DNA of 64,000 nucleotides from Actinacidiphila guanduensis (GTDB taxonomy: Bacteria; Actinomycetota; Actinomycetes; Streptomycetales; Streptomycetaceae), in assembly GCF_900103985.1 (NCBI RefSeq), contig NZ_FNIE01000003.1, positions 1-64,000 of the forward strand, given 5' to 3'. The notes below the pieces were generated by a model. It was not told where the DNA came from. It saw only the letters and a program-made list of their open reading frames with translations, and ran no database searches. A program made the position numbers and the translations under genes. Shown here piece by piece: positions 2,491 through 50,485 of the stretch. Positions within the stretch are counted from its first letter, which is position 1. Each line of letters starts with the position of its first letter.

Positions 2491-2528
2491 GATGAGGTTC
2501 GGAACGACATGAGGGAGGGCGACCACGA

Positions 2529-3200
2529 ATGACGGTGACCAGGACCCCACCCAGCGGGGACCGGCCCCGCAACAAGCGAGGCGAGGGCTCGAAACTGCGC
2601 GGCGACATCCTCGACGCGGCCACGCGGCTGCTCGTGGCCGGCGGACCCGAGGCCATCACCCTGCGAGCCGTCGCCCGCGACGTCGGAATCGCCACCACCT
2701 CGATCTACAGCCACTTCGCCGACCGCGAGGAGATCCTCGACGCCATCGCCGACCAGGCATTCACGGAAATGGCCGAGGCCACCGGCCGAGCCATGACCGC
2801 GGAGCAGGACCCGGTCGGCGCACTCGTCGCCGGCTGCCGCGCATATCTGCGGTTCGCGACCGACTCACCGCAGCTCTACACCCTGCTGTTCACGACCGCG
2901 CTCGGCCCCAGCCAGAAGTCTGGGCTGCGCACCCCGAAGCCGTCCCAGTGGGAGTCGGAATCCGGTGCGAGACTCTTCCACAACCTGGTGGACGGCATCC
3001 AGGCATGCGTCGACACCGGATTTTCCGACAGCTCCGACGCCTTCACCAGCGCGCTCATGGTCTGGTCGGCCCTGCACGGCTACGCCGGGCTCCGCGCCAA
3101 CCTGCTCTCGGTCCCCTGGCCGGACGAGGAGAAAACTCTTGCACAACTCGTCGCCGACCTGGCGCATCTGCATCGCACATCAGCGATCGGGCAGTCCTGA
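2529..3200 (+). CDS. TetR/AcrR-family transcriptional repressor
   Basis: This is a 223-residue TetR-family regulator. The N-terminal helix-turn-helix lies at about residues 25-70, with the segments ILDAATRLLVAGGPEAITLR and VARDVGIATTSIYSHFADRE; the latter is the recognition helix followed by the characteristic Y-x-H-F. The remainder is the helical ligand-binding and dimerisation domain, with a C-terminus resembling the TetR_C_33/WHG group. It is transcribed away from the MMPL exporter, and the twin palindromes between the two genes suggest that it represses the exporter and itself. The inducer cannot be read from the sequence. Confidence 0.93.
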   Translation: MTVTRTPPSGDRPRNKRGEGSKLRGDILDAATRLLVAGGPEAITLRAVARDVGIATTSIYSHFADREEILDAIADQAFTEMAEATGRAMTAEQDPVGALVAGCRAYLRFATDSPQLYTLLFTTALGPSQKSGLRTPKPSQWESESGARLFHNLVDGIQACVDTGFSDSSDAFTSALMVWSALHGYAGLRANLLSVPWPDEEKTLAQLVADLAHLHRTSAIGQS

Positions 3201-5207: not shown

Positions 5208-5391
5208 GCGCCACCCCAGGACTCACTCTCTCCTCAGCATAGCGAGCACGAGGCGAAAAGAACCAAATGTCCGCATTGATGTACGGGGCGGCCGGCCGTA
5301 GTGACCCGCGGCGTTGCTGACGCGTGGCGCGCAGACATGAGGTGAATGAATGAACAGGCCCGGGACGGATCGAGTCGTTGCGGTCACGTCC

Positions 5392-6748
5392 GTGGGAGTG
5401 GTGTATCGACGGCCACTCGGTGATCTCGTTGTGAGGCTATGCGGTGAGTGCGGTCGGCAGGTCCATCTTGTCGGTTTGTGACTCGTTCGGGGTGGGGCGG
5501 GTTTTGGCGAGCAGGTCGAGTCCCATGTAGCGGCGGGCTTCGGTCCATTCGTCGTTCTGCTCGGCCAGGACGGCGCCGACCAGGCGGGTGACGGCGGTGC
5601 GGTCGGGGAAGATCCCGACGACGTCGGTGCGGCGGCGGATCTCCTTGTTCAGCCGTTCCTGGGGGTTGTTGGACCAGATCTGCCGCCAGATCTCACGGGG
5701 GAACGCGGTGAAGGCCAGCAGGTCTGCCTGGGCGGTGTCGAGGTGGTCTGCGGCCTTGGGGAACTTGGTCTCCAGGGCGTCCAGGACGTGCCGCATCTGC
5801 GCGTGGACGGCGTCGGTGTCGGGCTGCTCGAAGACCGTCCGCAGGAGCGTGGCCACCCATGGCTGTGCCGATTTGGGGACCTGGGGAGAGCAGGTTGCGG
5901 GCGTAGTGGGTGCGGCACCGCTGCCAGGACGCGCCGGGCAGAACCGCTCCGATCGCGGTCACGAGGCCGGTGTGGGCGTCGGAGACGACGAGCTGGACAC
6001 CGGAAAGACCGCGGGCGGTCAGAGATCGCAGGAAGGCGAGCCAGCCGGCGCCGTCCTCGGCGGTGGCGACGTCGAGGCCGAGGATTTCGCGGTGCCCATC
6101 GGCGTTGACTCCGACCGCCACCAGCGCGTGGATGTTGATGATCCGGCCTTCCTCGCGGACCTTCTGGGTCAGGGCGTCGACCCGGACGAACGCGTACGGG
6201 CCGGCGTCCAAAGGTCGGTTGCGGAACGCGGTGACCTGCTCGTCCAGGTGCTTGGCCATCGCGCTCACCTGTGACTTCGACAGTTGGGTGACGCCGAGGG
6301 ACTGCGCGGGTTTCTCCACGCGACGGGTGGAGACGCCCAGGAGGTAGGCGGTCGCGACGACCGAGATGAGGGCCTGTTCGGCCCGGCGGCGGCGTTCCAG
6401 CAGCCAGGTCGGGAAGTAACTGCCCGACCTCAGCTTGGGGATGGCGAGTTCTACCGTGCCGGCGCGGGTGTCCCACTCGCGCGGGCGATACCCGTTGCGG
6501 TGGTTGACGCGTTCGTCGCTGACCTGCCCGTACTCGGCGTTGCAGACCGCGTCGGCCTCGGCCGACATGAGCGCGTCGGCGAAGGCTTTGACCATCGCGC
6601 GCAGCAGGTCGGGACTCGCCGTGGCGAGGTTGGACTCGGTGAGGGCGTGCAGGGGCAGACTGTCTGGTGCGGTCATCGTGCTGATCTCCTTCGAGGCTTA
6701 GACACTTCGAAGATCAGCCGGTGGCCGTCTTTCTATACGGGCACCCAC
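5392..6748. mobile_element. IS256-family insertion sequence, about 1.36 kb
   Basis: The element is delimited by imperfect terminal inverted repeats. The left end reads GTGGGAGTGG from 5392 and passes through ACGGCCACTCGGTGATCT. The right end, read inward from 6748 on the other strand, begins GTGGGTGCCC and passes through ACGGCCACCGGCTGATCT. The size and a single transposase gene fit the IS256/Mutator group. No convincing target duplication was found next to the proposed ends, so the exact termini are uncertain by a few bases. The transposase is frameshifted, so the copy is probably not self-mobile. Confidence 0.8.
5437..6676 (-). pseudogene. IS256-family (Mutator type) transposase, frameshifted
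   Basis: The gene starts at 6676 (MTAPDSLPLHALTESNLATA) and reads as a normal IS256-type transposase through two catalytic Asp regions, FVRVDALTQ and VVSDAHTGL. The frame is lost near 5880. The C-terminal third, from WVATLLRTVFEQPDTDAV to the stop at 5437, continues in another frame and carries the catalytic Glu region NPQERLNKEIRRRTD. Removing one base from the CCCC run on the coding strand (plus positions 5883-5886) restores NLLSQVPKSAQPWVATLL, the usual family sequence. A one-base insertion or sequencing error is the simplest reading, because IS256 transposases are not normally made by programmed frameshifting. Confidence 0.85.
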
Positions 6749-7238
6749 CCAGACGCCGGGACAAACCCCCGGATCGGGTCCCACCCGCTACACCACTTCC
6801 AAGGACGCAACCGTCGTTGCCCACCGATGCCGGACAGGCAGTCGGCACGGGACCACCGGGAGATCATCGAGGCGGCATCACGGATTGGCCGATGTACTGA
6901 TGCAGCGGGCAGTCCCTGTCCCGCAGTGGGCTACTCCCGAACGTATCCAGGACTGCCGCAGGGCCTCTTTCGAGCGCACCCGGCCCCGATCTTGCTGGAG
7001 CGTGAAAGCCCCCGGGGGGAATAGGACAGGGATTGTTGGCCGGAAGGGAAGTGTCACGGTCTTTGACGCGGCGGCAGAGCTTTCGCTCGGCGCATGCGGG
7101 TTACGCTCTCCGCCGCCGGCGGGTGTGTTCATGCCGCGACCTCGACTTGGCGCCGGCACCGGCACCGGCCTGCCCGCGGTACCACGATCCGCGGCCGGGG
7201 TTGCGCAACCTCGCTGGGTAAGACAACGGAGATTTGAT
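6749..7238. other. Gene-free stretch after the insertion sequence
   Basis: No reading frame with coding character was seen here. The plus-strand frame of the following gene is open from 6885, but that part has no ribosome-binding site and no recognisable protein features. The segment probably holds the promoter and leader of the lectin protein starting at 7239. Confidence 0.5.
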
Positions 7239-8438: not shown

Positions 8439-9497
8439 CTAGGACTTGGTGGCGGTCTGGGGCGGACGGGTCGCGCGCTCGGCGGGGGCCTGGACGATGC
8501 CGGTCTCGATGAGGCTGGTGGCCGTGTCGACGACGGTTTCGCGCAAGGGGCGCATACTCCAGCCGAGTTCGCCATGCGCCTTCTGCGCGCTGACGCGCAC
8601 GGGGCTTCCGGCGAGGAACCGGACCTGTCGCATCTCGCTGCTGAAAGGCGCCGCCAGCCGGATCAGCCAAGCGGGCATCCTGCCGGTCGGCACACGGAAC
8701 CCCGACCCTTCGAAGTCATCGGCCAGGATCCGGGCGATGTCCTGCATCCAGACGTTGTCGCCGGCACAGATGTAGCGGTTGCCGGCAGCGCCGGGCGTCT
8801 CCATCGCAAACCGGTGCGCCACGGCGAGGTCCCGCACGTCGACCACGGCAAGCCCGATGGGCGGCGAGGCCGGTACTTCCCGCGCGAGGAGTCGACGGAC
8901 CAGGTTCGCCGATGTCCCGACCGGCGCGTGCCGGACCGGACCGAGCACGAAACCCGGGTTGACGACGGCCAATTCGAAGTTCTGCCCCTCCGGCAGAGCC
9001 GCGACGAAGTCCCACGCGGCCCTTTCGGCGAGCGTCTTGCTCTTCTCGTAGGCCGGGACCGCGTCCACCACCGACCAGTCGGCCTCGGTGAAGACGCCGT
9101 GGTCGCGGGGATGGCCCGAGGCGATGGCGGCGACCGACGAGGTCAGCACCACACGGCGGACCGTGCCGCTGTCCGCGGCGGCACGCAGCACCCGCAAGGT
9201 GCCGTCGACGGCCGGGCGGATCACATCGTCCTCGTCCTTCGGCATGGCAGCGGGGAAGGGCGAGGCGACGTGCAGGACGAAGGCGCAGCCCTCCATCGCC
9301 TCGGACCATCCGGTGTCGGAGGAAAGGTCGGCCGATACCACTTCCACGTCGCCGAGTTCGCGCAGCCGGGCGGATTTATCCGGAGCGCCGGAATTCCTGA
9401 CCGTGGTTCGCACGGAATATCCGTGGTCGAGCAGTTCCGTCACGCAGTATCCGGCGATGAAACCGGATCCACCGGTCACCAGAATGCGGTCCGCCAT
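8439..9497 (-). CDS. NAD-dependent epimerase/aldehyde reductase (extended SDR)
   Basis: This 352-residue Rossmann enzyme resembles the dihydroflavonol-reductase/aldehyde-reductase branch of extended SDRs. The nucleotide-binding motif TGGSGFIAGY is near residue 8. The conserved LHVASPFP segment is near 84, and the catalytic YxxxK appears as YEKSK near residue 155. The C-terminus is the helical substrate domain. It most likely reduces a carbonyl with NAD(P)H in the cytoplasm; the substrate is unknown. A 17-bp inverted repeat lies 40 bp upstream of the ATG. The gene sits where a lanthipeptide gene has been cut short (9525-9869), which suggests it was joined to that cluster by rearrangement. Confidence 0.88.
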   Translation of the reverse strand: MADRILVTGGSGFIAGYCVTELLDHGYSVRTTVRNSGAPDKSARLRELGDVEVVSADLSSDTGWSEAMEGCAFVLHVASPFPAAMPKDEDDVIRPAVDGTLRVLRAAADSGTVRRVVLTSSVAAIASGHPRDHGVFTEADWSVVDAVPAYEKSKTLAERAAWDFVAALPEGQNFELAVVNPGFVLGPVRHAPVGTSANLVRRLLAREVPASPPIGLAVVDVRDLAVAHRFAMETPGAAGNRYICAGDNVWMQDIARILADDFEGSGFRVPTGRMPAWLIRLAAPFSSEMRQVRFLAGSPVRVSAQKAHGELGWSMRPLRETVVDTATSLIETGIVQAPAERATRPPQTATKS

Positions 9498-9524: not shown

Positions 9525-9869
9525 TCACCCTTTTGATGTGAACATCGTACACATTGAGAGGTCGTGCGCGGCCGTCATGGCTTCGGGCCCGCCGAACGCC
9601 TCGGTCTCCGGCTCGTAGATCCCGAGCGTGCAGGACTGCGCGGTGCCGTCGGCGACCAGGTCGTCCAGCAGGGCCGTCATGGTCAGCGAGGGGCGGTCGG
9701 CGAGGTAGCGCAGGGGCCAGGGCTGCTTGTTCATGAACCACCAGCCGTAGAGCTGCCCGTCGGCTTCAGCGGCGAGCAGTGCTGGGGCGAGGCGTTGAGT
9801 GATGGCGCGTCGTGCGGTGTCCCGGTTGGGGAAGGTGACGTTGTGCTGCTGCCAGCGGTCGGGAGGCAT
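9525..9869 (-). CDS. Truncated stand-alone lanthipeptide dehydratase C-domain (SpaB_C-like) protein
   Basis: This 114-residue protein matches the beginning of the thiopeptide-type bacteriocin biosynthesis (SpaB_C) domain, which removes glutamate from glutamylated Ser/Thr to form dehydro residues. Visible signatures are WQQHNVTFPNRD, YGWWFMNKQPWPLRYL and IYEPETEAFGGPEAM. Full stand-alone versions are about 280-300 residues and continue after AH-D-L with F-H-x-D-S. Here the reading ends ten residues after AAHDL with unrelated sequence, so roughly two thirds are missing. LanC ends 21 bp upstream and an AAGGA ribosome site precedes the ATG, so it was part of the operon. The complete LanB at 11156 carries its own C-domain, so this remnant may be dispensable. 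Confidence 0.75.
   Translation of the reverse strand: MPPDRWQQHNVTFPNRDTARRAITQRLAPALLAAEADGQLYGWWFMNKQPWPLRYLADRPSLTMTALLDDLVADGTAQSCTLGIYEPETEAFGGPEAMTAAHDLSMCTMFTSKG
9537..9553. promoter_or_regulatory. 17-bp inverted repeat upstream of the epimerase gene
   Basis: TGTGAACATCGTACACA has 7-bp arms around ATC with one mismatch. It sits 40 bp before the epimerase ATG (9497), where an operator of a dimeric regulator would be expected. It lies inside the end of the truncated C-domain gene. No matching regulator gene is adjacent. Confidence 0.4.
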
Positions 9870-9890: not shown

Positions 9891-11159
9891 TCAGGCTGTG
9901 AGCAGGCAGGCGTCCCAGGCGGTGCAGGGTGGTTCCGCGCTGTCGGTGGCGAGCAGTCCGAGCGCGGTTCCGGCGGCTCCGTCGAGCAGGCCGGCACCCG
10001 CCTCGTCCTCCAGGAGGCGGGCGGCTGCGGTGTCCGGAGCGGTGCCGGGCGGGAGCAGCACGGTGAGAAGGGCGGGGATGGTGGCGCGGAGCTGGCCGGC
10101 GTTGGCCGGGGCGGCGTCGGCGGCAGTACGGGCGGTGATGTGGATGAGGCCGGCCAAGCCGTGGCACAGGCCGCTGTCGGTGGTGGCGCGAAGCTGCGCG
10201 GGGTCGGTGAGCGCGTCCAGCAGGGCGTTCTCGGCGTCGGCCTGGAGGCTGGTGTCGCCGAGGGCGAGCGCGGCGAGCTGCTGTGCGCGGGCCAGGCCCG
10301 CCGTGCCGTAGCACCAGCTCGGCCGCAGTGGCGCGCAGGGCGCGAGCCGCCCGGCGCGCAGTTCGTCGCGGGTGATCCAGTACGGCCAGGCGGTGCCTCG
10401 CGCGGTGGTTGTCTTCCACTGCTCCAGCCAGGCCAGGATGGTGCGCATCGCCTGGTGGTGGCCGGTGACGGTGGTGCCGCGGCGGGCGGAGAGCGCGAGC
10501 AGTGCGAGGACCGCGCCGATGCCGTGCGCCATGCCGTGGTTGGCGTGGCCGCCGGGGAATCGGTCGTCCGGGCGGCCGGACGGCCCGGTCGGCGCCCACC
10601 AGCCCGGCAGGCGCTCGTCGTCCTGGGTGACCGGCTCGGTCAGGCGCACGCAGTAGTCGAGGACGGCCCGCGTTACCGGGCCGTCCGGGTCTCGGCGCAG
10701 CAGGTGGGCGCCGTAGCCGCTCAGGCCCCGGATGGCGTCGAACTCGGCGAGCGCCGGGAGCTGCCCGGCGTCGATGCGGCGGTGCGCGGCGTCCAGTCGC
10801 CACCGGGCGTCCGCGGCCACCTGCTGGTCCAGCAGGCCGAGGCCGCGCCGGTAGGAGCCCGGGAGGTGGTCGGCGGCACAGGCCAGGGCGTGCGCGAGGG
10901 CAGGGGCTCCGTAGAAGGGGTGGCTGTCGGGGCCGCGGGTGAAGGGCTGGCGGGTCGCGGCGGCCAGCCAGTCGTGGGCGCGCTGCCAGGGGGCAAGGCC
11001 GGCCGCGGCGCGCTCGATGTGCAGCAGGGCGATGCCGGTCGGCCCGAAGGCGAGGTGCTGCCGGTTGGTGTCGGCCGTGGCCTCCGCTGGCGCCCCGTCG
11101 GGGTGGGCGAGGCGGTCGGCTACGGCGGTAGCCACAGCGTGCGCGGGGCGGTCGGTCAC
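9891..11159 (-). CDS. lanC: Lanthionine synthetase C (LanC) cyclase
   Basis: This 422-residue LanC-family enzyme adds Cys thiols to dehydroalanine or dehydrobutyrine in the lanthipeptide core, closing thioether rings in the cytoplasm. The alpha-toroid motifs are present: HPFYGAPALAHAL, GHANHGMAHGIGAVLALLAL, SWCYGTAGLARA (zinc Cys near residue 283) and GLCHGLAG (zinc Cys-His near 332-333). The GTG at 11159 was chosen because it overlaps the LanB stop by 4 bp (GTGA), indicating translational coupling. The frame is open further upstream, but that portion lies entirely inside lanB. The size is normal for stand-alone cyclases. Confidence 0.93.
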   Translation of the reverse strand: MTDRPAHAVATAVADRLAHPDGAPAEATADTNRQHLAFGPTGIALLHIERAAAGLAPWQRAHDWLAAATRQPFTRGPDSHPFYGAPALAHALACAADHLPGSYRRGLGLLDQQVAADARWRLDAAHRRIDAGQLPALAEFDAIRGLSGYGAHLLRRDPDGPVTRAVLDYCVRLTEPVTQDDERLPGWWAPTGPSGRPDDRFPGGHANHGMAHGIGAVLALLALSARRGTTVTGHHQAMRTILAWLEQWKTTTARGTAWPYWITRDELRAGRLAPCAPLRPSWCYGTAGLARAQQLAALALGDTSLQADAENALLDALTDPAQLRATTDSGLCHGLAGLIHITARTAADAAPANAGQLRATIPALLTVLLPPGTAPDTAAARLLEDEAGAGLLDGAAGTALGLLATDSAEPPCTAWDACLLTA

Positions 11160-14339: not shown

Positions 14340-14513
14340 TCAGGCGACGTTGGTGGTGCAGGCGCCGCAGGTGCTGCCGCAGTTGTCGTCGGTCAGGCTG
14401 GTCAGCCCAGCCGCGTCCGAGACCTCCAGCAGGGAGACGTTCAGGTCGAACCCGTCCGACTGGCTCGTCGGCTCCTGGACCTGGGTGGCGCTCTGACTGA
14501 CGGGTGGCGTCAT
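14340..14513 (-). CDS. lanA: FxLD-family lanthipeptide precursor
   Basis: This gene encodes a 57-residue precursor peptide. The leader contains GFDLNVSLLEVSD (residues 21-33), the FxLD-type recognition motif, here with Asn (Asn25) where the name-giving Asp usually stands. The core ends LTDDNCGSTCGACTTNVA with Cys at 45, 49 and 52 and several Ser/Thr partners, so up to three thioether rings are possible. The ATG at 14513 was chosen because GGAG lies about 9 nt upstream; an ATG further out would add 19 residues with no leader character. It is the first gene of the lanA-lanB-lanC transcript and follows a short gene operon on the same strand. Confidence 0.88.
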   Translation of the reverse strand: MTPPVSQSATQVQEPTSQSDGFDLNVSLLEVSDAAGLTSLTDDNCGSTCGACTTNVA

Positions 14514-14595
14514 GACAACTCTCCAGGTGACTCGTTGGATGGTGCGGACAGGGTGGTTCTGCCAGAGCACTGACGGCCGGAGCGTAGCGACGGCA

Positions 14596-14832
14596 CTACG
14601 CTCGGGGCTCAGTCCTGGCCATCCCGGCGCGCATGATCGAGCCGGGAAGGTTGGGGGTGGAACGCCGTCCGCCGGTCCGATCCCGAGTCAGGGCCAGCGG
14701 GCGGCCATCATCAGGCCGTGGCAAGTCACCGGCCGGGGCAGCAGCTTGTGCGGCTGCCCATGCGTCTGCAGCCACAGCCGCCGGGGCTTCGAGCCACGCA
14801 AGACGGCAGAAGCGGGAGGTCAGAACGGTCAT
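14596..14832 (-). CDS. Small hypothetical protein, last of a five-gene overlapping operon
   Basis: This 78-residue protein begins MTVLTSRFCRLAWLEAPAAV. Its Ala-rich N-terminal half should be helical, and its second half is basic. The ATG at 14832 overlaps the stop of the preceding gene by 4 bp (ATGA), which supports the start and that it is translated. No known domain was recognised. It ends 82 bp before the lanthipeptide precursor on the same strand, so a role in that cluster is possible but not shown. Confidence 0.6.
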   Translation of the reverse strand: MTVLTSRFCRLAWLEAPAAVAADAWAAAQAAAPAGDLPRPDDGRPLALTRDRTGGRRSTPNLPGSIMRAGMARTEPRA

Positions 14833-15104: not shown

Positions 15105-15208
15105 CGCTTCACCACCGGACGGCGCCGCCACTCGGCGGCCAGTCCAGCGTCGGCCAGCTGGCGGTCGATGTCTCGGCCCTCGTAGTGCTGGTCCGTTGCT
15201 TTGGTCAC
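15101..15208 (-). CDS. 35-residue coupled micro-protein
   Basis: A GTG at 15208 opens a 35-residue frame, MTKATDQHYEGRDIDRQLAD continuing to VVKR. It overlaps the stop of the gene before it by GTGA and the start of the gene after it by ATGA. Overlap at both ends is the main evidence that it is real. The peptide is charged, has no Cys and should be helical. No family was recognised. Confidence 0.6.
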   Translation of the reverse strand: MTKATDQHYEGRDIDRQLADAGLAAEWRRRPVVKR

Positions 15209-15648
15209 GGCAGGTCCTCCAGCAGCTCATCCAGCAGGTCGGACACGGCCATGGCGAGGCGCCGCAGGTGGCCGAGGGCTGCGGTGAAGTCCGCGGGGAA
15301 CCTCTCCGTCAGCAGTCGGAGTGACGCGTCGAAGCGGTGCTGGGACACTCCGCTTGCGGGCTGCTGCGACACGAACACGATTCGCCGGAGGGCGGCATGA
15401 AGCCTCGGCCGGATGTCGGCGATCTCGGCTGCCGTGAGGTCGCCGCCGTACTCGCCGAGAACGGCGTCCAGGTCCTCGAAGATCAGCTCAACGTTTGGAG
15501 TGCTGGGAGTCTCCAGAAGGAACCGCTGCCGAAGTCCGGCCAGCACTCGGGCCTTGGCCCGGGGGCTGTTATCCGCGACCGTGGCGAGGGGATCGGCGTA
15601 GACCTCGGTGGCAACGGTCACCTCGGGTGCCAGCGTGTTGTGGCTCAT
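15205..15648 (-). CDS. Helical regulatory-type protein (DUF6415-like)
   Basis: This 147-residue, mostly helical protein begins MSHNTLAPEVTVATEVYADP. The C-terminal segment ALGHLRRLAMAVSDLLDEL resembles the end of the Streptomyces DUF6415 group linked to natural-product loci; that match is from memory and tentative. The ATG at 15648 overlaps the ATPase stop at 15645 by 4 bp, so it is translated with it. A second frame continuing upstream to 16185 is non-coding on the ATPase region. Confidence 0.65.
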   Translation of the reverse strand: MSHNTLAPEVTVATEVYADPLATVADNSPRAKARVLAGLRQRFLLETPSTPNVELIFEDLDAVLGEYGGDLTAAEIADIRPRLHAALRRIVFVSQQPASGVSQHRFDASLRLLTERFPADFTAALGHLRRLAMAVSDLLDELLEDLP

Positions 15649-16148
15649 CGGTGCGCCCGCCCCGGTGCCGGCAGCCGAAGGAGACACCAGGTCCTCGTGC
15701 CGTCCTCGCTCACGCCCCAGGACGCAGCCAGCGCGCTGACCAGGAGCAGCCCGCGGCCGTTCAGCGCGTCGAGGCTGCTCGCCCGCAGTTGAGGCCGCTC
15801 GGGCGAGCCGTCTTCGACTTCCACCACCAGCAACTCCAGGCAGATCAGCAGGCGGAGGCAGACCACCGGCTGCGTGCCGTAACGGAATCCGTTGGTGACG
15901 AGTTCGCTGATCAGGAGCTGAGCGTCTTCCGCCAGCGCCGACAGGCCCCAGAGGGCCAGCTTCGCCCTTGCGATCTTGCGGAGTTGGCCGACTCTGACGG
16001 CTGTAGAGCTGCGAACGGCCCCGTCCTCGGTCAGGGGTTCGCGTTCGACAGTCATGGAGACGTCCTCCAGGACCTCGGGCAGAGCATCTGCCGGGCATCC
16101 GGGGTGCAGCTCCGCAAGGATCTCCCGGCCCGGTGCAGTGACAGCCAT
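15645..16148 (-). CDS. Anti-sigma-type ATP-binding (HATPase_c) protein
   Basis: This 167-residue GHKL ATPase of the small Streptomyces kind resembles SpoIIAB/RsbW. Motifs are ELVTNGFRYG (N box, near residues 85-95), VEVEDGSPERP (G1 box) and NGRGLLLVSALAASWGV (G2 box). Such proteins bind or phosphorylate anti-sigma partners or act with XRE/DUF397 regulators. The ATG at 16148 has GGAGAGG 5 nt upstream. It is the first gene of a five-gene run with 4-bp overlaps, divergent from the XRE regulator at 16424. Confidence 0.87.
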   Translation of the reverse strand: MAVTAPGREILAELHPGCPADALPEVLEDVSMTVEREPLTEDGAVRSSTAVRVGQLRKIARAKLALWGLSALAEDAQLLISELVTNGFRYGTQPVVCLRLLICLELLVVEVEDGSPERPQLRASSLDALNGRGLLLVSALAASWGVSEDGTRTWCLLRLPAPGRAHR

Positions 16149-16290
16149 GCTTACCTCTCCGCAGCTCAGAGGAGCAGCGCGGCATGAACCGGACCTAACC
16201 CGCCGGTCGCTTCTGCCGTGCTCCTGCCCTTGGTCGTGCTGGCTCAACTACCGTGGCTGGTGACCTCCGTGGCTTGCAACCGAATCGTCG

Positions 16291-16302: not shown

Positions 16303-16423
16303 TGAGGTCCTGAATTGGACTATGCGCGAGGTTGCACAGGGGGTATCAATGGCAGCGCAGGAGATGCGACACTCTGCGCACGGTGGTAGACAGCACGCAC
16401 AGGCGCTTGGGGGTAGTGCACAG

Positions 16424-17317
16424 ATGGCAGCGAAGCGAGGCGCCACGGGTAGGCGGCTGGAACTGGGCATCCAGCTGAGGCAACTGCGGGAGAACTGCCC
16501 ACCCATCGAGGAGGGCCGCGCCCGCGGGATGACGCGCAGAGCTGCAGTCCGGGGCCTCAAGGCTCTCTCGGAGCCAAGCCTTGCCCGGATCGAGAACGGT
16601 GAGCTGAACTTCCGCCGTAACCCCTCGGATCTGCGGACGCTCCTCAAGAGGTACAGCGTCACGGACGAGTCTCTGATCGAGCAGCTGGTCGAGCTGAACC
16701 GCGAGGGGGTGAACGACGAGTGGCTGACCCAGTACCGAAGCTTCATGCCCACCGGGATGCCGCACTACGTCGGGCTCGAAGCCGAAGCGAGGGCGATCAG
16801 CGCCTACCACCCCACGGTGGTGTACGGGTTGCTCCAGACCGAGGCGTATGCCCGTGCCCTCTTCGAGGTGCAGCGCCCGGTCGAGGACACGACGGCGGAG
16901 TTCATCAAGCGCAATGTCGAGCTGCGCATGGAACGCAAGCGCCGAGTCATGGAGCGGGAGGACCCGGTCCGTACCCACGTCATCCTCGGTGAGGCGGCAC
17001 TGAGGATTCCGGTGGGCGATGATGACGTGATGCGGGAGCAGTACCTGGAGATCATCAAGCTGGCGCGCGAGGACCACGTCTCGATCCAGGTGCTGCCCTT
17101 CAAGCGCGGCTACCGGTCGAGCAACGACTTCACGATTCTGGACCTCGGCGGCGAGCTGCCTGCCCGGGTGCAGACGGACAATGCTTGGGGCGCCGTCTCC
17201 ACGTCGGACAAGCCCCGCGAAGTGGATCGGTTCACCCGCCGGTTCGCCGCGATGGTGGGCGTGGCCCTGGGCCTCGAAGACACCATCAACTTCCTGGAAG
17301 AACTAGCGCGAAGGTAG
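16424..17317 (+). CDS. XRE-family regulator with DUF5753 (Scr1-type)
   Basis: This 297-residue regulator has an N-terminal helix-turn-helix (LELGIQLRQLRE, then LSEPSLARIENGELNFRRNP). It is followed by the large DUF5753 ligand-sensing region, marked by PTVVYGLLQTEAYARALFEV, RKRRVMEREDP, and IQVLPFKRG near the end. The family usually pairs with a small DUF397 protein, and such a gene follows 7 bp later. The ATG at 16424 was chosen by family length and a GGGGGT site 9 nt upstream. In-frame ATGs at 16322, 16349 and 16364 are alternatives. Confidence 0.85.
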   Translation: MAAKRGATGRRLELGIQLRQLRENCPPIEEGRARGMTRRAAVRGLKALSEPSLARIENGELNFRRNPSDLRTLLKRYSVTDESLIEQLVELNREGVNDEWLTQYRSFMPTGMPHYVGLEAEARAISAYHPTVVYGLLQTEAYARALFEVQRPVEDTTAEFIKRNVELRMERKRRVMEREDPVRTHVILGEAALRIPVGDDDVMREQYLEIIKLAREDHVSIQVLPFKRGYRSSNDFTILDLGGELPARVQTDNAWGAVSTSDKPREVDRFTRRFAAMVGVALGLEDTINFLEELARR

Positions 17318-18761: not shown

Positions 18762-20954
18762 TCACGAACGATCGTACGCGCGGACCGCGTCTGCGATCCG
18801 GAGCACCTCCTGCGGGTAAATTAGTGCCAACACTGGCAGAGGCGTCAGCCACGACCCCAGTGCGAATGCCTCACCCAACAAGTGACTGGCCCGCGGCAGA
18901 CCGACTACCGATGCCACCCGGGTCAGTGCATGCGCCTGCTGGTCCGGGTTGGTGAGGGTGCGGGCGATCTCCTCGGCCCGCTGATGGTTGTCGGCCCCGG
19001 CCACCACCTGTGCCAGCTCGGTCAGTGCCTCCGCCTGCTGGGCCGGGTTGGTGATGGCGCGGGCCATCTGCTCGGCCTGTTCGTGGTCGCCGGCCTCGGC
19101 CACCACCCGGACCAGCTCGGACAGTGCCCACGCCTGCTGGTCCGGGTCGGTGATGGCGCGGGCCATCTGCTCGGCCTCGGCGGCCAGCCCGACAGCCCGC
19201 TCGTGGTCACCGGCCCCGGCCACCACCTGTGCCAGCCCGGTCAGTGCCCGCGACTGCTGGTACGGGTGGGTGATGGTGCGGGCGATCTGCTCGGCCTCGG
19301 TGGCCAGCTCTGCAGCCCGCTGATGGTCACCGACCCCGGCCACCACCCGGACCAGCCCAGTCAGTGCCTCCGCCCGCTGGGCCGGGTTGGTGAGGGTGCG
19401 GGCGATCTGCTCGGCCCGCTCGTGGTCACCGACCCCGGCCACCACCCGGACCAGCCCGGTCAGTGCCCCCGCCTGCTGGTACGCGTCGGTGAGGGTGCGG
19501 GCGAGTGCTTCGGCCCGGTTGGGTTGGCCTAGGGCGGCCCACACGGCTGGGAGACGGATAGGGATGTGGGTGTTGCGGGATTCGAGCTGGCCGCGGTGGT
19601 GGGACAGCCTGGCCAGGGCGTACAGGTCCGGCTCCGGGCCGTCCAGGAGCAGGTCCTGGCAGGTTGTGATTTCGGTGAGGGCGGCCGTGTCGCCGCCGGA
19701 CAGGTCGAGCATCCGGTCGTGGCGTGCCGGGTCGAGGGCCAGGGTGGCCAGGCGGCTGGTGTCACCGGTGGTGGCCAGCATGCGGGGATAGCCGGTCAGC
19801 AGGTACTCGGGGGTGTGCGGCGGCCACGCCGGCCGGCCGCCGGTGGGCGTGCGGTAGCTGTCAGCCCAGATGTGCAGCCGGTTGCGGTAGTGGGCCAGGC
19901 GGTCGTTCCCGAGGTAGTGAGCGGATGCGTTGTGGAGTTCCTCGTGGCCGAGCAGGTACACCTGCTGGCCGTCGTCCGGTGACCAGGCGGCGGGCCGGCG
20001 GGTGAAGGTGCGCCCGGCCACGGTGTGCAGTATCTCCTCGACGGTCACCAGGTCCGCACCGGTCAGCTCACGCAGGTCGGTGCCGGACAGGCCGCCGCGG
20101 GCGGCGGTCAGCAGGCCCAGCAGATCCTGCTCGACGGGGCTGCCGGTGAGCAGGCGTTTGAGTTCTGACTGGCCGAGCCGTTGCACATCCCGGGCGTGCG
20201 GGGAGTCGCCGAGCAGGCGGGCGATGCCCGGGTCGCGCAGCGGATGCCAGTCGGGCACGTCGTCGGGGATCGGCGGGTTGGGCCGGCCGGCGACGATGAT
20301 GCGCATCCCGGCCGGTGGGCGGCCGGGCAGCAGCCCGGCGATGCTGTGCGCCCCCGGCCCGGTGGTCACCCCACGGTCTTCGTCCAGCCCGTCGACGACC
20401 AGTACCAGTCGGCCACCCGCGTGCCGGCACGCCTCTGCAGCCGAAACGAGCAGGTCCAACAGGGCCGCTTCCCGGGTCCCCTCGTCGCCGCCGGTCGGCA
20501 GGTCCACGGCGAGCAAGCCGCACAATTGCTCGGTGAGCGCGGTGGTGAACGGCTCCCGTGTGTCCTGCGAGGCGAGCCGGGCGGTGACGAAGAACGACAC
20601 CAGCCGCACCCCGCTGGCGGCGAGACGGTCAGGCGGGTTGAGGACGAAGGTGGACAGCAGTGCGGACTTCCCCGCCCATGGCCCGGCCCGCCACCACACG
20701 TAGGGACCACGGTGATCGTCCAGGCAGAAGCCGGTCAGCTCGGCCAGCTCGGCGTCCCGGTCCAGCAGCTCGGGTGGGGCGATCCGCTCCACCTGCCGCC
20801 GGTACGCCGAGCGCACCGGCCGCGCCACGGCAGACGCCTCGTAGTGGTGAACCGCGACGTTCCCGGCGACGTGCCCGAAGCTGGTCCCGGCGGCGTGCCC
20901 GGGTGACGGGCCGACGGAATCATACGGTGACCGCGGCGCCGCGGTACCGGCCAT
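18762..20954 (-). CDS. STAND/NACHT-type (NLR-like) ATPase with C-terminal repeat array
   Basis: This 730-residue signal-transduction ATPase has a short N-terminal motif, FGHVAGNV at residues 26-33, ahead of the nucleotide domain. Walker A is AGPWAGKS (90-97) and Walker B VVDGLDED (186-193), followed by the sensor region IIVAGRPNPPIP and winged-helix segments. The C-terminus holds at least five 33- to 40-residue helical repeats (about 480-680) with the core P-x-Q-Q-A-x-A-L-x-x-L-x-x-V-V-A-x-x-x-D-H-x-x-A. Such proteins oligomerise on sensing a trigger and activate an effector. The gene 23 bp upstream ends in a closely similar FGQVAGDV motif, which suggests effector recruitment by motif self-assembly. 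Confidence 0.85.
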   Translation of the reverse strand: MAGTAAPRSPYDSVGPSPGHAAGTSFGHVAGNVAVHHYEASAVARPVRSAYRRQVERIAPPELLDRDAELAELTGFCLDDHRGPYVWWRAGPWAGKSALLSTFVLNPPDRLAASGVRLVSFFVTARLASQDTREPFTTALTEQLCGLLAVDLPTGGDEGTREAALLDLLVSAAEACRHAGGRLVLVVDGLDEDRGVTTGPGAHSIAGLLPGRPPAGMRIIVAGRPNPPIPDDVPDWHPLRDPGIARLLGDSPHARDVQRLGQSELKRLLTGSPVEQDLLGLLTAARGGLSGTDLRELTGADLVTVEEILHTVAGRTFTRRPAAWSPDDGQQVYLLGHEELHNASAHYLGNDRLAHYRNRLHIWADSYRTPTGGRPAWPPHTPEYLLTGYPRMLATTGDTSRLATLALDPARHDRMLDLSGGDTAALTEITTCQDLLLDGPEPDLYALARLSHHRGQLESRNTHIPIRLPAVWAALGQPNRAEALARTLTDAYQQAGALTGLVRVVAGVGDHERAEQIARTLTNPAQRAEALTGLVRVVAGVGDHQRAAELATEAEQIARTITHPYQQSRALTGLAQVVAGAGDHERAVGLAAEAEQMARAITDPDQQAWALSELVRVVAEAGDHEQAEQMARAITNPAQQAEALTELAQVVAGADNHQRAEEIARTLTNPDQQAHALTRVASVVGLPRASHLLGEAFALGSWLTPLPVLALIYPQEVLRIADAVRAYDRS
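18914..19514 (-). repeat. Tandem near-identical coding repeats in the STAND ATPase
   Basis: Five or six copies of a 99-bp unit, two of them with a 21-bp insertion, encode the C-terminal helical array. The units are similar at DNA level, with shared runs such as GGTCAGTGCC and GGCCACCACC, which suggests recent duplication or gene conversion. Variable positions cluster around the residues after the conserved proline (AYQQAG, AQRAEA, YQQSRA, DQQAWA, AQQAEA). Boundaries are approximate. Confidence 0.8.
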
Positions 20955-49843: not shown

Positions 49844-50485
49844 CTACCGGCCGGGCTCTTCCGCCACGGCACCGGTGTCGGCCGCGCCGGTCCTGGCGCG
49901 CAGGGCGGACTTCTTCGCCAGGTTCCCGCAGGTGTTCATGGAGCACCAACGGCGGCGGCCGGGCCGGGAGTTGTCGATGAACAGCGCCCCGCAGCCCGAG
50001 TTGGCGCACGCGCGCACCCGGTCGATGTCCGGTGAGGCCGCCAAGTCGAGGGCGTCGCGGGCGACGAGTGCCAGCACCGCGAGCACCGGGTCGGCGGCGG
50101 AGAACCGCAGTCTTCCCGAGGCGTCCAGCCATGGGGCCGGTACCGGCGACCGGGCGGCGGTGTTGACGGTCTCGCGTGCGCCGGCCGGGCAGCCCGCCGG
50201 CCCCTCGGGCCCGCGGGCGGCGGCGATCAGCAGGTGCACCGCCTCACGGAGGGTCCGGGCCCGCTCGTCGTACGGCACGCCGCCGGCGCCGTCCGGCCAG
50301 GCCTCACGGTCCGCCGGCTCCAGTCCGGGCGGGCCGAAGCGCTCCACCCAGGCGGCCAACTGCCGCAGCCCGGGCAGCTCCTCCACGGCTTCCGCGCTGT
50401 CCCGGTGGCGCAGCGTCCGGATGAAGTCCAGGCACAGCCGCCCGGCTCCCGAACGGAAGGCGGGGACCTCGGCGGCGACTGGCAT
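49844..50485 (-). CDS. ABATE/CGNR zinc-finger regulator
   Basis: This 213-residue protein has an N-terminal ABATE-like helical domain (GRLCLDFIRTLRHRDSAEAV) and a C-terminal CGNR zinc finger: RVRACANSGCGALFIDNSRP, then WCSMNTCGNLAKK. The four Cys are kept, but the signature CGNR reads CGNL. The family binds DNA and often regulates neighbouring transporters. It is divergent from an MFS gene, with a perfect 17-bp inverted repeat between them. Confidence 0.88.
   Translation of the reverse strand: MPVAAEVPAFRSGAGRLCLDFIRTLRHRDSAEAVEELPGLRQLAAWVERFGPPGLEPADREAWPDGAGGVPYDERARTLREAVHLLIAAARGPEGPAGCPAGARETVNTAARSPVPAPWLDASGRLRFSAADPVLAVLALVARDALDLAASPDIDRVRACANSGCGALFIDNSRPGRRRWCSMNTCGNLAKKSALRARTGAADTGAVAEEPGR

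Follow-up and report, generated by a model that had tools for sequence, protein, structure and literature searches.

A common FxLD lanthipeptide precursor beside a lanSA gene that is split in a draft Actinacidiphila genome

We analyzed a stretch of 64,000 nucleotides from Actinacidiphila guanduensis (hereafter the window). The peptide encoded at positions 14340–14513 is a real and ordinary member of a common streptomycete family, and the only surprise is a strain-specific broken tailoring gene: the special feature of the locus is the broken lanSA, which lies outside 14340–14513. We judge it probable that lanSA is cut in two near position 9557 in the draft assembly by a genome rearrangement, and that maturation halts after no more than one dehydration, giving glutamylated intermediates but neither isoaspartate nor a normal product. 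Judged from its genes alone, the locus is by descent a coi-type class I lanthipeptide cluster (lanA-lanB-lanC-lanSA).

The precursor and its neighbor genes

The minus-strand frame at 14340–14513 translates into the 57-residue product MTPPVSQSATQVQEPTSQSDGFDLNVSLLEVSDAAGLTSLTDDNCGSTCGACTTNVA, which the profile TIGR04363 matches end to end (profile positions 1–37 of 37; score 43.7 bits, curated cut-off 30, E 2e-11). Asn rather than Asp stands at the fourth position of the name-giving motif, but TIGR04363 does not require Asp at this place, and membership by profile therefore holds. The translation also gives the three Cys of the core in C-x3-C-x2-C spacing. On these points the original prediction, namely a 57-residue FxLD-class precursor with FDLN and this Cys spacing, was correct, and the peptide does not fall outside the family profile. 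Separate LanB and LanC genes adjoin the precursor, as in class I systems, and the core contains the T-x-D-x-C pattern of coi-type and lanthimiditide clusters in the form TDDNC. A search of solved structures with the precursor (E up to 10) returned three matches only, all xanthine-dehydrogenase-like (E 0.24–0.84), and yielded no convincing relative and no ring template. The features of the locus are summarized in Table 1.

Table 1. Features of the lanthipeptide locus, in window coordinates
Feature	Position	Strand	Basis
lanA, 57-aa FxLD-family precursor, leader FDLN, core LTDDNCGSTCGACTTNVA	14340..14513	(-)	translation; TIGR04363 match
lanA upstream stretch, GGAG-like ribosome site ahead of ATG	14514..14710	(-)	alignable to sisters; homology ends 14659-14710, sister-dependent
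lanB, full-length dehydratase, 1030 aa	11156..14248	(-)	PF04738 + C-terminal glutamyl lyase PF14028/TIGR03891
lanC, LanC-like cyclase	9891..11159	(-)	PF05147 over residues 27-410 of tested stretch 9894-11132; WCYG, GLCHG motifs
5' fragment of lanSA, ~104 codons	9558..9869	(-)	TIGR03891 1-109 of 263, PF14028 1-107; sisters collinear to 9557
rearrangement junction within lanSA (placed to ~1 base)	9556..9558	.	alignment to sisters + contig C5 piece
NAD-dependent epimerase/SDR-like gene, now abutting junction	8439..9497	(-)	PF01370; 86% identical paralogue at G000:C5:57739-58871

LanB possesses both the glutamylation and the lyase domain, the latter with HLRLR and SLLH motifs. The start of lanC is uncertain; by frame arithmetic, a candidate Val codon would overlap the lanB stop. 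For lanB and lanC, dN/dS values of 0.24–0.39 were obtained against the same five relatives (L151, L101, L160, L176 and L125). Because homology to the FDLN sisters ends by 14710, the HTH/DUF5753 regulator with HATPase and DUF6415 frames beside lanA (16322–17317 and 15205–16247) lies outside the conserved cluster. Elsewhere in the window, 18762–20954 encodes a 730-aa protein with NPHP3-like NTPase and TPR matches, and an IS256-family element with a truncated transposase frame (5693–6676) occupies 5380–6813; copies of this element at 78–95% identity are found in many genomes of the genus.

Prevalence of FxLD precursors and sampled loci

Within the window's genus, 25 of 35 genomes have a match to TIGR04363; of 297 genomes sampled from the family, 109 do. 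The window's own genome contains two precursors above the cut-off. Among 72,556 plasmid records, 28 had a match, three of them covering at least 80% of the query; the annotation of the four best names an FxLD family lanthipeptide and fxlM. For comparison we used 146 loci including the window. One hundred stretches (L066–L165), 99 chosen for a precursor and one for a methyltransferase, were picked among the matches listed; a further 45 named loci (L176–L220) were taken for their similarity to the window LanB, and this second set is biased toward close relatives and includes some genomes already present in the first. From 142 of these loci 145 precursor rows were obtained, and none came from L109, L217, L218 or L220. 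A methyltransferase was scored as adjacent when a methyltransferase-like frame reaching 150 bits lay on the precursor's strand, with midpoints within 3 kb upstream or 7.5 kb downstream. One locus, L077 (G023:C2:4943000-4962900), has two different FxLD precursors and several methyltransferase-like frames within about 10 kb.

The core and its expected rings

The 18-residue core of the window peptide is identical in 31 of the 145 rows, the window included and some genomes counted twice, and 28 of these 31 rows have FDLD in the leader, including the precursors of S. iakyrus, S. cyaneus and S. albus. T-x-D-x-C is present in 143 of the 145 rows, and the residue after the core Asp gives DDN in 55 and DDG in 41. 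We considered whether Asn at this place, where Gly is often found, is tied to methyltransferase loss, and dropped the idea, given the 55 DDN and 41 DDG rows and an adjacent methyltransferase absent in three only. The rings of the CoiA1 product are described as T43-C47, T50-C55 and C51-T57 (PMC9486935, PMC9011353). By spacing, we would place those of the window peptide at T41-C45, T48-C52 and a reversed C49-T54.

The leader asparagine and its dehydratase clade

The fourth motif residue is Asp in 127 of the 145 rows, Asn in 14, Ser in two and Thr in one; one further row, L164, was misread at the motif (it reads LDLD and was counted as V). The Asn rows comprise six FDLN rows of the window lineage (the window, L101, L151, L159, L160 and L162), four FTLN rows (L176, L177, L189 and L219), three rows of a different subtype (L095, L120 and L123) and one LDLN row (L165). 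Five rows (L095, L120, L121, L123 and L124) belong to another FxLD subtype in which the motif Asp is replaced by Asn, Thr or Ser. In a LanB tree of 130 rows, built after removal of LanBs scoring below 300 bits, of identical proteins and of three rows whose motif could not be parsed, the ten FDLN and FTLN rows form one clade with 100% SH-aLRT support, and the Asn label requires four changes over the whole tree. In addition, Table 2 of PMC3930743 gives FDLN for epilancin K7. Because Asn occurs in 14 of the 145 rows, marks one supported ten-row LanB clade and is found as FDLN in epilancin K7 as well, the leader Asn is a tolerated, clade-fixed variant of one dehydratase-leader clade and not the mark of a new class. 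A leader letter that looks rare thus turns ordinary once relatives are counted.

Set against 53 other LanBs (scores above 830 bits), the ten of the FxLN clade have 32 clade-specific positions, 10 of which fall within residues 150–229, a stretch that is no more variable overall (24 of 80 columns versus 275 of 950) and that, by comparison with NisB, is probably the leader-binding (RRE) region. When any 80-residue stretch was allowed, 119 of 20000 shuffles reached this clustering, in a test that was post hoc. By sub-clade, 15 of 55 specific positions of the six FDLN rows and, weakly, 14 of 107 of the four FTLN rows lie in the same stretch; control Asp clades had 7, 2 and 0 specific positions, none of them in 150–229, numbers too few for a strong control. 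The predicted structure of LanB residues 135–265 (pLDDT 45.8) was too poor for a structure search. The clustering is a lead for possible co-adaptation of leader and LanB. Extended further, it would mean that the FxLN leader and LanB shifted their recognition together while the core stayed unchanged, FDLN and FDLD being natural orthogonal pairs, and that the strain is a natural lanSA knock-out yielding, if expressed, a partly dehydrated, isoAsp-free shunt peptide; we regard this combination as unlikely. In any case, the reading of the leader box could be tested with FDLN and FDLD pairs whose cores are identical.

The lanSA gene is split between two contigs

A methyltransferase gene is adjacent to the precursor in 142 of the 145 rows, the exceptions being L075 and L146, which lie at contig ends, and the window. 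In all nine other members of the clade (five FDLN sisters and four FTLN relatives), lanSA follows directly after lanC; in L160, for example, the gene at this place encodes 687 aa, with an N-terminal TIGR03891 match (1–263) and a C-terminal FxLD-system methyltransferase (TIGR04364, 437 bits). In the window there is no intact LanSA. The alignment to the sisters runs from 14659–14710 down to 9557 and then ends, and what remains behind lanC is the N-terminal part of a syn-type glutamyl lyase domain with its conserved Lys (K48 of the fragment), in a frame that runs through about 10 foreign codons past the junction to a stop near 9525. The original prediction did not mention this broken gene.

The missing part was found on another contig of the same genome (G000:C5), in which an open frame of 587 aa, with a TTG at the junction and its end at 50367, contains lyase positions 108–263 and TIGR04364 1–394 (436 bits). 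Both pieces align to the same base of the intact gene in four genomes (G039, G011, G281 and G143), and neither loss nor duplication exceeds about one base. In comparisons with the five relatives, dN/dS was 0.32–0.66 for the 5' piece and 0.25–0.40 for the 3' piece, the former being higher in all five comparisons, which may reflect the short stretch or beginning decay. The absence of clear decay in either half makes the split look recent, although the values for the short 5' piece are slightly higher. A literature search by titles and the beginnings of abstracts for disrupted or rearranged lanthipeptide methyltransferase clusters gave none on point.

On the 3' side of the C5 junction lies a match (about 74–77% identity) to the region behind lanSA in G039, G281 and G143. 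The intact lanSA of G011 is followed, after about 700 bases, by an AAA-ATPase gene and a 600-aa frame to which no Pfam family matched; their 89% match in the window's genome stands 3.2 kb past the C5 junction, with its relative orientation reversed. This arrangement suggests an inversion or a translocation rather than a simple insertion. On the window side, the junction is abutted by the SDR-like gene, which was not found beside lanSA in the sisters compared; its similarity to the C5 paralogue (86–87%) reaches the junction and continues 11–12 bases past it, and slight microhomology at the junction is possible. At the end of C5 there is an 88% paralogue of the TetR-type gene at 2504–3169 of the window. 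No repeat common to both junction regions was found in the strain's own genome. Positions 1–2327 of the window, which begins at the contig start, are 100% identical to G000:C3:62106-64432.

Alternative explanations

Two alternatives concern the peptide itself. That lanA is a spurious open reading frame might be argued from its shortness, from the many frames that overlap here and from its dN/dS against four of the five relatives (0.53, 0.60, 0.97 and 0.61 against L101, L160, L176 and L125, respectively; 171 bases only, and noisy). Against the nearest homologue, L151, the value from the same short and noisy stretch is 0.15, the profile score exceeds the cut-off, and homologues with FDLN stand before lanB at five other loci of the same lineage and with FTLN at four more. 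Since the start codon, the ribosome site and the place before lanB are kept at these nine loci, the frame is not a chance one, and we find the spurious-frame explanation scarcely credible. The original prediction went further and read the peptide as a new precursor whose ring pattern and activity would be new information; in its strongest form this would be a novel FxLD subclass defined by Asn. Asn is indeed fixed in a ten-member clade whose LanBs have clade-specific residues clustered at 150–229, but the core is that of FDLD precursors from named Streptomyces, Asn, Ser and Thr occupy the same position in other subtypes, and the FDLN box exists in epilancin K7. We therefore consider such a subclass highly improbable. 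What stood of the proposal is a class I FxLD precursor with dehydratase and cyclase beside it; the novelty of the Asn (14 of 145 rows) did not hold, nor did that of the core, for which the proposed search for same-core precursors gave 31 of 145 rows, window included, and ring patterns of related products, mCoiA1 and mOlvA, had already been published.

Two others concern the split and its effect. Were the split an artefact of assembly, lanSA would be intact in the living strain and the cluster an ordinary coi-type one. The draft consists of 33 contigs, contig ends are no more than about 9.6 and 12.1 kb from the two junctions, the first 2327 bases of the window recur exactly on C3, and the arms past both junctions carry diverged SDR (86%) and TetR (88%) paralogues, with SDR similarity extending to the window junction itself. 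However, both junctions are internal to their contigs, and in the sisters' gene they coincide at a single base. The window junction region finds its best match elsewhere in the SDR paralogue, which lies 7.4 kb away from the C5 junction; for the C5 junction region, the genome offers nothing more than a 71% match over about 146 bases at another place on C5. The genes that follow lanSA in G011 also lie beyond the C5 junction as an inversion could leave them, and we hold an artefact to be quite improbable. Somewhat less improbable, though still doubtful, is that the pathway works in spite of a real split, with elimination and methylation supplied in trans by LanB's own lyase, the C5 half and/or enzymes encoded on contig C24. 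The C5 half retains a whole methyltransferase domain, lanB and lanC show no clear decay, and C24 carries a second FxLD cluster (L066, G000:C24:520000-539900), whose FxLD-system methyltransferase is intact (498 bits) and whose stand-alone lyase bears the syn-type Lys motif. Nevertheless, the C24 enzymes serve a different core type (TSDNCTSTCASACSNSTC), the C5 half no longer stands behind lanC, the syn-lyase domain is severed between its Lys and the remainder, and in the published homologue the CoiSA elimination domain is required for full processing (PMC9486935, PMC9011353). We thus prefer the reading of a lanSA gene broken by rearrangement.

Consequences for the product

We infer the chemistry of LanB, LanC and LanSA from published homologues, while genes, homology and conservation were computed. 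In the proposed pathway, LanB would bind the FDLN leader, glutamylate core Ser/Thr and eliminate the glutamate, the syn-type lyase of LanSA would dehydrate the last Thr, LanC would close three rings by analogy with mCoiA1, and the methyltransferase would convert D43 of T-x-D-x-C to aspartimide/isoaspartate. In the coi system, CoiA1 with CoiB and CoiC alone is described as undergoing a single dehydration at most, with glutamylated forms in addition, and the CoiSA elimination domain is needed; with it CoiA1 has three dehydrations (PMC9486935, PMC9011353). A Lys is reported as the mark of syn-lyases such as CoiSA and SptBb, and CoiSA K46 as important for function (PMC9486935, PMC9011353). Among LanSA rows from 30 chosen loci, 28 of 31 have Lys in the lyase part where most LanB rows have Phe or Tyr; of the remaining rows, two were unaligned there and the third is the C5 piece, which does not contain that stretch.

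With lanSA split, LanA in the window strain should be glutamylated, at most singly dehydrated and without isoAsp. Because lanSA is split and CoiB and CoiC stall without CoiSA in coi, the three-thioether product is probably not made in this strain unless rescued in trans, and a mass-spectrometric search for a three-thioether peptide there would probably fail for the same broken gene. A strain in which only the methyltransferase–lyase gene is broken, set against relatives that have the same core but an unbroken gene, offers a ready-made comparison of the contribution of this enzyme.

Comparison with known systems

The nearest described system is coi of Streptomyces coelicolor A3(2) (CoiA1, CoiB, CoiC and CoiSA), with which the window locus has in common a class I lanA, a full-length lanB, a lanC and a fusion of methyltransferase and syn-type glutamyl lyase (PMC9486935, PMC9011353). 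It differs in that lanSA is split in the window strain, that the window leader has Asn and that one precursor was found, whereas three are described for coi. The Thr and Cys positions of the window peptide are compatible with the published three-ring pattern of CoiA1, and its core has one residue fewer between the second and third Cys, in a comparison made through the residue numbers of the paper only (PMC9486935, PMC9011353). A search of the L209 genome for FxLD precursors (E up to 0.1) gave a single one and did not recover CoiA1. According to the 2022 coi paper, products of coi or olv had not been reported from their native producers (PMC9486935).

To the FxLD systems defined by TIGR04363 and TIGR04364 (fxlM), the window locus is linked by a full-profile match and adjoining LanB and LanC, but it has Asn at the fourth motif place and no intact methyltransferase gene beside lanA. 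The FDLN recognition box is shared with the leader of epilancin K7 (PMC3930743), which is another lantibiotic; the comparison covers the leader stretch only, and a common box need not mean common ancestry. Finally, methyltransferases of the LanSA class convert a core Asp to aspartimide/isoAsp, as described for OlvA (PMC13001092, PMC7268733, PMC10787088), and the window core has the same conserved Asp as the substrates of LanSA enzymes in olv (OlvA(BCSA)) and the lanthimiditides (PMC13001092, PMC9486935), with Asn after it, which a review lists as observed (PMC13001092). In olv, however, there is no fused lyase and OlvA has an extra ring, whereas in the window strain the methyltransferase is displaced.
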